Below are positions 3,797-11,398 of a stretch of DNA of 64,000 bases, in pieces (the first letter of the stretch is position 1; every line of letters begins with the position of its first letter). The stretch lies in the NCBI GenBank assembly GCA_002898375.1, contig BEIN01000009.1, positions 33,461 through 97,460 on the forward strand. The letters run 5' to 3'. The translations under genes were made by a program, and so were the position numbers. Under the pieces are notes generated by a model. It was not told the origin of the DNA and made no database searches. It was given only the letters and a program-made list of their open reading frames with translations. The stretch is from a bacterium HR37. GTDB taxonomy: Bacteria > Desulfobacterota_D > UBA1144 > Nemesobacterales > CSP1-2.

Positions 3797-4636
3797 CTAC
3801 TGGGTTGCAAGTATCTCTACGATTCTAGGAAATATGTACTCAGCTACGTCTCTACGCGAGCCCCCACCCGTTATTATAAGGTATCGCCCATAACAGGCTT
3901 CCTCTGCGCATCTCTTTAGCTCCCTTACAAGCTCTATGAAGAAATCGGGTGTGAGACCTATGTCGCCGTAATCTCCCTGACATGTATCGTGTCCGAGAAA
4001 GTGAAATATCATCTCGGGCCTAAACTTTTTTACCCTTGGTATAAATTCAAGCCTTATCAGGTTGAGATAATCTCTGTCCGTTAGATTCCAACCAGTTCTA
4101 ATACAAACTTTGGTTTGTGTGTGGTCTTCGTACTCTGAGTTGCAAAAGCAAACATGAAGGAGTTCAGGATCATCTTTAAACATTTCTCTATCACCGTCTC
4201 CATGATGGCAGTCTGTATCAAGCAAACTAAATCGTCTTGCTTTTGTTGTTGTTCTAAGTGTATACACTGCAGGTGCAACACAGTTTATATATGTTCCTCC
4301 CCAGGCATAGCTTGGTCCAGCATGGTGGCCGGATGCACTGTTAAAGATTAAGGCGTTTTTTAGTTCTCCACTGTACACCATCTTGCTTGCCAATATGCAT
4401 GCGCCAACGGAGTAAAACGCATTTTTGCCATACGGCCTGGTTTTTAAGCTATCAATCATCTCCTTGGTATGAAACCTTAACATCAGCTCTTCTTGTACCG
4501 GTTCATTCTCTATCAGTTTTACGTTGGGTAGCTTAAGAACGTTTTCTAAGACATCTGGAAAGTTTGCAAACTTGGCTCCTATTATTGGCCCCGGGTTTGT
4601 CTTCAGAATGCGGTTAAAAAAAACCCCTGTTAACAT
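3797..4636 (-). CDS. Histone deacetylase / AcuC-like family protein, atypical active site
   Basis: SGHHAGPSYAWGG, DTDCHHGDGD and GHDTCQGDYGDIGLT align with HDAC metal-site motifs. Confidence 0.8.
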   Translation of the reverse strand: MLTGVFFNRILKTNPGPIIGAKFANFPDVLENVLKLPNVKLIENEPVQEELMLRFHTKEMIDSLKTRPYGKNAFYSVGACILASKMVYSGELKNALIFNSASGHHAGPSYAWGGTYINCVAPAVYTLRTTTKARRFSLLDTDCHHGDGDREMFKDDPELLHVCFCNSEYEDHTQTKVCIRTGWNLTDRDYLNLIRLEFIPRVKKFRPEMIFHFLGHDTCQGDYGDIGLTPDFFIELVRELKRCAEEACYGRYLIITGGGSRRDVAEYIFPRIVEILATQ

Positions 4637-6906: not shown

Positions 6907-8613
6907 ATGCAGATAGCAAATGAAAAGTATAATAGAATTATCCTAGAAGAGAAAGCTCTTTTAGAGGCGCTTCTATCCGAGCTAAGGTCTCTTTCGGACA
7001 GGGAACTTGAGGATAAGCTTCTTACGATAATAGAAGGCCTAGAGAATTTTTTCTCCGTCGTTTTTATAGGGGAGTTTAGTACGGGAAAGTCATCAATAAT
7101 AAATGCTCTTTTGGGAAAAAAACTCCTTCCAGAGGGTATAACTCCAACTACAGATAAGGTAACCGTTATCAGGTACGGTGAGGAAGCAAAGGAATGCGAA
7201 GAGGAAGGAAAGCATGTTATTTCAGTTCAAGACGACAGATTAAAGGGTTTTCTTATAGTAGATACTCCAGGAACAAACGTGACACTTGAAGAGCATGAAA
7301 AGATTGTTAGAGAATTTATTCCAAGGGCCGATATAGTTTTTTTTGTAATAGGAGCGGAGAGAGCGGTAACCGAAAGTGAGGCAAGGCTTATAAGGTTTAT
7401 AAGGGAAGAGTGGTTAAAGAACACGGTTTTTATACTAAATAAGATAGACATAGTTGAAGATAGGGATGAGCTTGAGAGGCTAATTGAGTACTCTAAAAGG
7501 GAGATTGAGCGTATATTTAAGATAAAACCTTTTCTCATTCCGGTTTCTGCCAGGCTTGCTATTCAGGCAAAGCTAACCGGTGATCATGAACTTTACCTTA
7601 GAAGTGGTATGGCAAAACTTGAGGAGTACATATTCAGTGCTCTAAATGAGGAAGAGCGTATAAGGGTAAAGATCAAAAGCTACTCCGAGCTTGCTTTAAA
7701 CCTTTGTGTGGAGATAAAGAGGACTTTGGAATCCAGCTTAAATCAGATAATTGAGGATACAAAGCAACTCGATGAGTTTGAGAATAAACTCGAAGGTATA
7801 AAGGAAGAGATTCTAGAGAATTCAAAGCAGTTTACCGAGAGGATAAGAAGCAGGCTTTTAGAGTTTAAAACAAGAGGTATAGAGTTTATAGATGAGCTTA
7901 TAAGATTTGAGAACACCTTCAAGTTAATAAGGAAAGAAAAGATTGCAAAGGAATTTGAATCCAAGGTATCTATTCAAACGATTAAGGAACTGGAAAAAGA
8001 CCTAGAAGCCTTAATTAACTGGGCTGAGCGTTCAGAGCGGGCTTTAATGGAGAGTGCAATCGATTTTTATAACAGCTGCGTCCGCTCTACTCAGCTTAAA
8101 AGTGCTACAGGGTTCTCCTACAACAGGAGCCGTTTGATGGATACTGTAAGGCTAGAGCTTGAAGAGAAGAAAAAGCAGATTGATCCTCGTGTGCTTGGGG
8201 AGAAAATGGTTGACTCTGCAAGAGGGGCTATAGCGTCTGTATTGGGTTTGCAGGTTGGCTCCCTTGCGTTGGGGGCAGCAGTTGTATCTGCTTTTTCATC
8301 TGTTATAGTTGATATAACCGGCATTTTGACCACAATTGCTGTTATAGCTACGGCTTTTTCACTGTTACCAAGAAAAAGAAGGAATGCTATAAAGGAGTTT
8401 AGTACAAAGGTTGATGGGTTAATAGAAGAGCTTATCTCAAGTGTGCGCTCTCAGCTTGAGAGGGATTTAGATGGAATAAAGCTGGCAGTTTTAGATTCTC
8501 TGATACCTCTTAAGAATTTTTATAAGACCGAACAGAAAAAAATTATCGCGTCTAAGGAGAAGGTAAATAGGATATACGGTGAGATATTGGCACTAAAGGA
8601 AAGTGTGCTTTAG
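6907..8613 (+). CDS. Bacterial dynamin-like GTPase
   Basis: G1 GEFSTGKSSIINALLG, G2 T TPTTD, G3 DTPG, G4 NKID; long helical region and C-terminal hydrophobic hairpin. Confidence 0.9.
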   Translation: MQIANEKYNRIILEEKALLEALLSELRSLSDRELEDKLLTIIEGLENFFSVVFIGEFSTGKSSIINALLGKKLLPEGITPTTDKVTVIRYGEEAKECEEEGKHVISVQDDRLKGFLIVDTPGTNVTLEEHEKIVREFIPRADIVFFVIGAERAVTESEARLIRFIREEWLKNTVFILNKIDIVEDRDELERLIEYSKREIERIFKIKPFLIPVSARLAIQAKLTGDHELYLRSGMAKLEEYIFSALNEEERIRVKIKSYSELALNLCVEIKRTLESSLNQIIEDTKQLDEFENKLEGIKEEILENSKQFTERIRSRLLEFKTRGIEFIDELIRFENTFKLIRKEKIAKEFESKVSIQTIKELEKDLEALINWAERSERALMESAIDFYNSCVRSTQLKSATGFSYNRSRLMDTVRLELEEKKKQIDPRVLGEKMVDSARGAIASVLGLQVGSLALGAAVVSAFSSVIVDITGILTTIAVIATAFSLLPRKRRNAIKEFSTKVDGLIEELISSVRSQLERDLDGIKLAVLDSLIPLKNFYKTEQKKIIASKEKVNRIYGEILALKESVL

Positions 8614-10089
8614 CTAGCGAAAGAACTCCTGAAGAAATGCAAGAAAGGGTTCGGTCTGTATATCACCAGAGCCTATCATACTGCTTAGGTCTTTGGATGA
8701 TAGCCTGCTTCCTTCCTGCCATATCTGCTTGATAAAGTCTCCTGCTTTTTTCTCTCTCCACCATTCCTCATCGAATCTCTCCCTTAGAAACGTTTTTAGC
8801 TGAGCCTCCATTATATAGGCTTTTAGTTCTGTAGCTGTACGGAAAAAAGGATCTGTATCGTTTAGGTACTCATCCTCACTATACTCGCAAAGCATGGTTT
8901 CTTTAAGTATCTGTTTATATAGATCAGGTTTGTCATTGTAAAAGCCATTATCCCTGTGAAGTAAGAGTTCATAGAGAAGCTTTCCCGAAAGGTACCGTAT
9001 ATCTGATATCAGCTTTAGGCATAGAAACTGCAGAAAATCGGTTCCCGATTTTAGTTGTAGATACCTCTTTAGCCACTTGGGTTGAAAGAGGAGGTTTCTA
9101 AACAGATAGCCAAACACCTTTGCCGATGCTGAGTCTCCAAGCCTTCTAAATTCAAATGGATCCTCCGGTTCTTTGTATCGGTAGTAAAGAGCAATTCCAA
9201 GCGAGTGGAGAAAAGATTCATAGTCATAAACCCCTCCTATAGGATAACCCACAATAACTATCTTATTTGGTATCTCAACCGGTATGCAGAGAGCGTTGAC
9301 TGTTTTGCTATTTCGTTTCTCAAGGTCTAGTAAAATACCCTTTCCGATCTCAAGCCCCATTTCTTTAAGAAATGCCTCTGCTAAGGGTTTTAGCTCTATT
9401 TGGGGGAAGTTCTCCCTTAACTCAAATGAGTTTAGAAGGTAGTGTAGATCATACGCCTTTAGCTCTGTAAGCTTTAGTGCCATCTTCTTTCTGAGAAACC
9501 ACCTTAGCAGATCTCTATACACGTATTCGGTATCGTTAAGCAGTGTCCTTGCTTGTTTCTCCAGTTCATATAGGTTTAGCTCCTCGATCTCGGCACAGAG
9601 TTGGAGATAATCCGGGAATCCAAGTTCTCTTGAGGTTTCGTGTGCTGTTTCAAAAATCTGAATGAGAATCGGTGTTAGCTTGGTAAGAATGCTATTTCTT
9701 TTTGCATACATCTCTTCTCTTTTTGCTCTTATTGGCTCTTTCTTTATCTCCGCTGTTATTGCCCTGTAAGGGATATGTTTTTTGTCCAGTGTTATCTCCT
9801 CATCTGCTTCTATTCTTAAAATTTGATCCTTAAAACATGCAAACCTGCTTTCAACAGTAAAGCGAGCTAGAAAATCTCTTATAAGCTTAAATCCTCTTTC
9901 TTTTTCGTTTGAGAGTTTTACCATCTCAAAAAAAAGGTCATAATCACCAAGTTCTCTATATGAGTTATAGATTTCTTTGAGTTTGCTCTCTTTTTTTAAC
10001 CCACAGAGATGGTCTAAAAGCTCACCGTTTAAGGCCCTTAAAAAGGCCTCTCCTTTCTGGCGAATCTCATTTAGTGTGCCACTATCCAT
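8614..10089 (-). CDS. Peptidase M3-like (oligopeptidase F-like) fold protein lacking the HEXXH motif
   Basis: Region DYESFLHSLGIALYYRY...ASAKVFGYLFRNLLFQPKWLKRY resembles the M3 HExGHa...E.xS.vfE.Ll..p.wl layout, but HEXXH is replaced by HSLGI. Confidence 0.55.
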   Translation of the reverse strand: MDSGTLNEIRQKGEAFLRALNGELLDHLCGLKKESKLKEIYNSYRELGDYDLFFEMVKLSNEKERGFKLIRDFLARFTVESRFACFKDQILRIEADEEITLDKKHIPYRAITAEIKKEPIRAKREEMYAKRNSILTKLTPILIQIFETAHETSRELGFPDYLQLCAEIEELNLYELEKQARTLLNDTEYVYRDLLRWFLRKKMALKLTELKAYDLHYLLNSFELRENFPQIELKPLAEAFLKEMGLEIGKGILLDLEKRNSKTVNALCIPVEIPNKIVIVGYPIGGVYDYESFLHSLGIALYYRYKEPEDPFEFRRLGDSASAKVFGYLFRNLLFQPKWLKRYLQLKSGTDFLQFLCLKLISDIRYLSGKLLYELLLHRDNGFYNDKPDLYKQILKETMLCEYSEDEYLNDTDPFFRTATELKAYIMEAQLKTFLRERFDEEWWREKKAGDFIKQIWQEGSRLSSKDLSSMIGSGDIQTEPFLAFLQEFFR

Positions 10090-10138: not shown

Positions 10139-11398
10139 CTAACCGGTCCCCGTTATGGAGAGATCTTTTAGTCCTTTTTTCTCCGGTGGTTTTATAAAGA
10201 AAGAAAGAAAAGCTGATACGTAGCAGAAGAATGCTGCAAGAAGAAACGGATAAAAGTATGCCCCGGTTAGGTCGTGTACGAATCCTGCAATAAATGGTCC
10301 TGCAATTGCTGCTATCGAATAGGATGTACCGAAAAATCCATATATTGTGCCAAGTGATCCAAGCCCAAAGAACCTTCCAAGGAGAGCCGGGAAGATGGGA
10401 ACGGAACCGCTATAGAAAAAGCCAAATAGTATCCCGAATAGATAAAACGCCCATGTTTCATTTGTGGCAAGCAGCAGAAAAATTGAGCTTCCTTGAAATA
10501 GAAAACAGATAAAAAGAACCCTTTTGGGTTCTACAATCTCTGTAAGCAGTGCGGAAAGGGTTATCCTCCCAAATATGCTTCCAAGACCGATTGCAGCAGG
10601 AGCTCCGGAAGCTATTATAGGGGGAATCCCCAGGTCTATTGCAAAGTTAAAGAGGTGAATTACAACTATCAAGAAGGTCATGAAACCAAAGAAGTACATG
10701 GAGTACATTAGCCAGAAGGTAGGGGTTGCAATTGCTTCCATGGCTTTCCAGTCTTTGTCTTCTGTCGTTGTGTTATGGAGAGGGTTATTTTTTTCGTTAT
10801 CTAACCCGTAAGGCTTTAGGTTTTTATCCTCAGGGGAGGCTCTTAGAACGAGAGCAGATAACGTGGATACCAGTATGATCCCTGCCAGTATGAATAGGGC
10901 TTTTCTTACCCCGAAAGAAGATATAAGCCAGGCTGAAAGTGGATTCGTAATAAGACCACTTAGTGGGATACCAGTTGTTATGATACCTATTACAAGTGTT
11001 CTTTTCTTTACAAACCATCTGCTTACCAGAGCAACACACGTTATATATAGAACACCGTCTCCAAGTCCAACAAGTAAGCCATAAGATATGTAGAGGTGCC
11101 ATATATCTTTGGCAAGACCGGACAGAAAAACTCCAACCGAGACTATAACTCCTCCGGAGAAAACCACTACCCGCGGATCATATCTGTCTACAAGACGACC
11201 TCCCAGTGTCAGGGAAAAGGCAAGCACCAGGGATCTGAGTGAGAAGATTGAGGAACCTATAGCTCTTGATACCTCAAACTCCTTATTTAGGAAGGGAAGA
11301 AAGACTCCAAAAGAGTAAAGAAGAAGTCCATCAACAATAATCAGAATTAAAGAGGCTGCTACTATGTACCATCCGTAAAAGATCTTTTTTTTAAACAT
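10139..11398 (-). CDS. MFS transporter (oxalate/formate antiporter-like/monocarboxylate type)
   Basis: 12 TM pattern, FYGWYIVAASLILIIVDGLLLYSFGVFLPFL. Confidence 0.88.
   Translation of the reverse strand: MFKKKIFYGWYIVAASLILIIVDGLLLYSFGVFLPFLNKEFEVSRAIGSSIFSLRSLVLAFSLTLGGRLVDRYDPRVVVFSGGVIVSVGVFLSGLAKDIWHLYISYGLLVGLGDGVLYITCVALVSRWFVKKRTLVIGIITTGIPLSGLITNPLSAWLISSFGVRKALFILAGIILVSTLSALVLRASPEDKNLKPYGLDNEKNNPLHNTTTEDKDWKAMEAIATPTFWLMYSMYFFGFMTFLIVVIHLFNFAIDLGIPPIIASGAPAAIGLGSIFGRITLSALLTEIVEPKRVLFICFLFQGSSIFLLLATNETWAFYLFGILFGFFYSGSVPIFPALLGRFFGLGSLGTIYGFFGTSYSIAAIAGPFIAGFVHDLTGAYFYPFLLAAFFCYVSAFLSFFIKPPEKKGLKDLSITGTG

Follow-up and report, generated by a model that had tools for sequence, protein, structure and literature searches.

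An M3/M2-derived pseudopeptidase family of Candidatus Dadabacteria that has lost its zinc site and probably acts by binding

The window analyzed here, a stretch of 64,000 nucleotides from a host genome of 2.42 Mb, encodes a protein that is best explained, with a probability of about 0.86, as an M3/M2-derived pseudopeptidase that lost its zinc site, has been kept by selection and most likely acts by binding. The assignment of this protein and its orthologs to a new pseudoenzyme family, in the uncultured Candidatus Dadabacteria, is well supported, and the loss of catalytic residues, the membership in a single clade and the action of selection are established for these proteins. Judged by its residues, the window protein should be unable to hold a catalytic zinc in the ancestral way. 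A sequence-only reading had already drawn attention to this 491-residue open reading frame, which indeed lies on the minus strand at the position then given (Table 1), and the two segments that it quoted, DYESFLHSLGIALYY (from residue 289) and ASAKVFGYLFRNLLFQPKWL, are both present. The plus strand across the gene is full of stops and offers no competing frame, and hydropathy analysis reports neither a signal peptide nor a membrane segment in the protein.

Table 1. Coordinates of the pseudopeptidase gene, its diagnostic segments and neighboring genes in the window
Feature	Coordinates	Strand	Remarks
M3-like pseudopeptidase gene	8614..10089	minus	491 aa, probably cytosolic
RTATE, residues 417-421	8827..8841	minus	mostly YxxxY in catalytic homologs
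Lys324, third zinc-ligand column	9118..9120	minus	Glu in 27/28 and Asp in 1/28 catalytic homologs
Degenerate zinc motif HSLGI, residues 295-299	9193..9207	minus	HExxH in catalytic homologs at the same place
DYES, residues 289-292	9214..9225	minus	just ahead of the lost motif; D289 and E291 invariant in Dadabacteria
MFS transporter	10139..11398	minus	same strand as the pseudopeptidase, 49 bp upstream
HDAC-fold deacetylase	3797-4636	minus	Hist_deacetyl E 1.8e-32
Dynamin-like GTPase	6907-8613	plus	Dynamin_N E 2.6e-26; PADLOC LeoA model E 1.6e-28

The Pfam M3 model (PF01432) matches the window protein over residues 116-222 only (16.3 bits, E 0.0064), below the curated cut-off of 27 bits, and Pfam M2 (PF01401) does not match it even at E 10; among the distant relatives scanned, a single one (L030) returns an M2 match. 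NCBIfam, PHROGs and PADLOC hold no family for the protein, phmmer reports only a chance match in the PDB, and the profile A2, built from pseudopeptidases only, does not retrieve any PDB chain by sequence. As the pseudopeptidase-only profile is devoid of a PDB match and the Pfam M3 score stays under its cut-off, it is the catalytic intermediates and the fold that tie the protein to the family. The search for relatives returned full-length, single-copy orthologs within the order, and HExxH-bearing distant homologs from other lineages. Of the catalytic-motif homologs found, the closest is L104, which belongs to a genome outside the class and aligns with the window protein over its full length in a direct BLASTP comparison (34% identity, 481 columns, E 7e-90), with HELGH opposite HSLGI and a Glu opposite Lys324. 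Another homolog, L056, is 51% identical to the window protein, and its HELGT aligns to the HELGH of L104. L104 itself hits the NCBIfam model M3_not_pepF (E 3e-10), under the cut-off of that model. The AlphaFold2 model (16 orthologs; pLDDT 89.8, pTM 0.91) is predicted to adopt the alpha-helical clamshell fold of the M2/M3 enzymes ACE and neurolysin, and not an unrelated fold: Foldseek reports ACE, ACE2 and neurolysin as the best PDB matches (E ~1e-9 to 1e-8; ~1e-9 for ACE and 5.5e-9 for neurolysin), with TM-scores of 0.65-0.78 by query length. At the level of sequence, the link of the window protein is to M3. The M3 assignment, first made by eye, is therefore borne out by the full-length match to catalytic M3-like homologs and by the ACE/neurolysin fold.

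Several further HExxH proteins came to light in these searches. L104, L105, L106 and L107, which come from several lineages, are M3-like with an intact HExxH and do not reach the M3 cut-offs of Pfam and NCBIfam; they apparently form a catalytic M3-like subfamily that is missing from the family libraries. Two genomes (G092 and G085) each encode two HExxH homologs of the window-protein family (L063-L066), one of which, in each genome, starts with a lipoprotein-like or hydrophobic stretch, and this N-terminus suggests an exported paralog. An ordinary M3 peptidase with HELGH is also encoded in the same genome as the window protein.

The loss of the zinc site was followed in a profile alignment of 48 homologs, comprising 20 Dadabacteria orthologs and 28 proteins from outside the order. 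HExxH and a Glu/Asp third ligand are kept in all 28 outside homologs, and the second zinc His is found in none of the 20 Dadabacteria proteins, its position being occupied by eight different residues (E, S, K, R, T, A, Q, I). The first His and the catalytic Glu are each present in 3/20, and the third Glu in 6/20. The window protein retains the first His, one of three ligands, and its catalytic Glu is gone; L053 keeps more of the site (HETGA together with the third Glu), and L056 keeps HELGT. This alignment agrees with that to L104 in setting HSLGI opposite HELGH and Lys324 in the third-ligand column, and the sequence-only reading was thus right in calling the HELGHA position degenerate and the third-ligand Glu gone. 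E291, close to the lost motif, is not invariant in catalytic homologs. The YxxxY tyrosines presumably correspond to the substrate/transition-state tyrosines of M2/M3 enzymes: the two positions hold Tyr in 24/28 and 27/28 catalytic homologs versus 3/20 and 4/20 Dadabacteria proteins, and both are replaced in the window protein. Column entropy is zero or near zero at the first His, the catalytic Glu, the second His and the third Glu in catalytic homologs; in Dadabacteria it exceeds that of 86%, 59%, 93% and 88% of columns, respectively. A zinc site relocated within the fold was also considered and is rejected, since the 20 Dadabacteria proteins contain neither HExxH nor HxxEH anywhere and do not share any conserved His or Cys column. 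The variable ligand columns and the missing conserved His/Cys column therefore indicate that the site was lost and not moved, and the zinc site is absent from 20/20 orthologs without having been rebuilt elsewhere. The second His is the sole ligand that all members have lost, and it would most simply have been the first to go.

The order comprises four families (f1-f4) in which the ortholog is present, as a single copy, in 23 out of 25 genomes, and three others (f5-f7) in which it is present in 0/19. The two f1-f4 genomes devoid of it are 59% and 80% complete. The 20 Dadabacteria proteins form one clade (SH-aLRT support 100) nested among catalytic-motif proteins. The carriers group together in the RpoB tree (support 82/89), a pattern compatible with a single acquisition and subsequent vertical inheritance; with the root of this tree being unsure, a loss in f5-f7 could also account for the distribution.

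In the scenario that best accounts for these observations, a clan MA zinc oligopeptidase (M3/M2 superfamily) lost its second zinc His on the Dadabacteria-lineage stem, the other catalytic residues probably drifting afterwards, while the two-lobed alpha-helical shell stayed under purifying selection. The protein most likely now binds a protein or a peptide via the old cleft or its surface, acting as a scaffold, a sensor or a partner subunit. The role of peptide binder or scaffold is inferred, and the loss in the window protein extends to the two Tyr positions. The gene directly upstream codes for an SfMCT-like MFS transporter, which would be the first candidate partner.

Among solved proteins, this MFS is closest to the SfMCT L-lactate transporter (E 6e-53). 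The MFS gene is located directly upstream of the pseudopeptidase and on the same strand in 16/16 loci read, with gaps of 26 to 290 bp. In the 49-bp gap of the window no terminator is predicted, and a weak promoter-like match is found, such matches occurring at chance level in the region. The idea that the MFS is the binding partner stems from the constant adjacency and from the precedent of ACE2 and B0AT1, in which a protein of ACE fold can be the ancillary partner of a transporter (PMC10491607); the comparison of that pairing with the pseudopeptidase and the MFS is an analogy only. The partner model is nevertheless rather unlikely, a lead to follow, because the MFS exists without the pseudopeptidase in f5-f7 and the block is old. 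Indeed, an SfMCT-like MFS is present in all 19 genomes of the order that are devoid of the pseudopeptidase, and a need of the MFS for the pseudopeptidase is thus rejected. The residues specific to the MFS of carriers are scattered and do not outline any obvious docking patch. That the adjacency is plain inherited synteny, with the two genes functionally unconnected, stands at about even odds; this alternative concerns the partner model and leaves the pseudopeptidase itself untouched. In its favor, the gene order is stable, and the same MFS adjoins TatA, NuoG and NuoH where the pseudopeptidase is absent: TatA follows the MFS, mostly with NuoG and NuoH as well, in f6, in f7 and in one f5 genome of the two read. 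However, in family f3 the MFS and the pseudopeptidase have remained paired although the nuo genes are gone from the block, and the gaps are of 26-110 bp in most genomes. Across f5-f7 (L124-L131 and L133), the MFS adjoins TatA/NuoG/NuoH or HisS-like genes, and the place of the pseudopeptidase is an empty site. A broader possibility, which seems unlikely, is that the oligopeptidase fold was recruited to serve an MFS transporter of monocarboxylate type, as its subunit or regulator in the cytosol, or that its cleft became a new site for binding or catalysis, to which the Dadabacteria-specific residues Y189, W197, N220, S221 and E291 would point; the loss of the second His would then mark the start of such a recruitment.

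Regarding the other neighbors, a quinone-oxidoreductase-like gene is often convergent with the pseudopeptidase. In two f1 relatives (L049 and L057), an ortholog of the HDAC-like protein follows the pseudopeptidase gene on the same strand, at distances of 14 and 69 bp. The other f1 genomes read retain the order MFS, pseudopeptidase, HDAC-like, which in the window genome is broken by the dynamin-like GTPase and by HtpX-like and CBS-type proteins. The stop codon of the convergent dynamin-like GTPase directly abuts that of the pseudopeptidase; this GTPase, found beside no ortholog read, is rejected as a partner.

Among the readings that dispute the pseudopeptidase itself, the least improbable, though still unlikely, holds that the cleft was rebuilt as a non-zinc active site and that the protein is an enzyme with new chemistry. 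Y189, W197, N220-S221 and E291 show little or no variation in Dadabacteria (19-20/20), unlike in catalytic homologs, and these lineage-specific residues stand beside the shared D289, E313 and R365. However, none of the columns conserved in 18 or more of the 20 proteins is a His, Cys or Lys, and the former active-site columns vary freely. A metallopeptidase that is still active through substitute ligands or an altered metal geometry is very improbable: remnants of the site persist, with HE and the third-ligand Glu in L053 and that Glu in six of the 20 proteins, but the second-His position accepts eight residues, the window protein holds one of three ligands and no catalytic Glu, and the family does not share any His or Cys that could stand in for the lost ligands. 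Lastly, a decaying pseudogene, a bad assembly or a misread frame, which the lost catalytic residues and a divergence faster than that of the neighboring MFS (mean column identity of 53% vs 73%) might evoke, is refuted by intact orthologs, since the 23 genomes with a match show no internal stops, all complete copies are of ~490 residues, position and fold are conserved, and dN/dS is ~0.1-0.3 (eight pairs, some with synonymous distances near saturation), the intact frames and this ratio together pointing to a functional pseudopeptidase.

The pseudopeptidases share their fold and length class with the M3 enzymes (oligoendopeptidase F, thimet oligopeptidase and neurolysin; PF01432), to which catalytic intermediates relate them over the full length, and D289, E313, L317 and R365 mark columns conserved both among the pseudopeptidases and in the majority of catalytic M3-like homologs. 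Unlike M3 enzymes, the window protein is devoid of HEXXH, carries a Lys for the third-ligand Glu, has both tyrosines replaced and scores below the Pfam cut-off. The M2 proteins ACE and ACE2 provide the best Foldseek matches, and M2 likewise includes proteins with no functional zinc site: in mouse, rat, dog and cow, the ACE3 motif is HQMGH and the protein is believed to be devoid of protease activity, and the same paper cites ACN-1 as having no metallopeptidase active site (PMC1925091). In contrast to the animal M2 proteins, which are secreted or membrane-bound, the pseudopeptidase is bacterial, cytosolic as judged by hydropathy, and has no membrane anchor. A search of the open-access literature did not turn up any description of a pseudopeptidase of the M3 family in bacteria, or any paper containing both "oligoendopeptidase" and "pseudoenzyme", and a 2024 review of metallopeptidase pseudoenzymes mentions neither oligopeptidases nor angiotensin-converting enzyme (PMC11266112). 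The family assignment gives a testable description to a protein that is fixed in half of an uncultured order and was missed by general family libraries. With its catalytic-motif outgroup, its single origin and members that keep part of the site (HELGT; HETGA plus Glu), the family opens the steps of metal-site loss to study. Metal ligands or catalytic residues have likewise been lost, with the fold kept, in the M12 ADAMs, in M14, and in M1 Tma108, M24 Ebp1, M13 Goe, M16 MPP alpha and M41 FtsHi, for which a binding role is known or presumed. Described metallopeptidase pseudoenzymes are mostly eukaryotic, and the Dadabacteria family, of the M3 type, adds a clean bacterial example.
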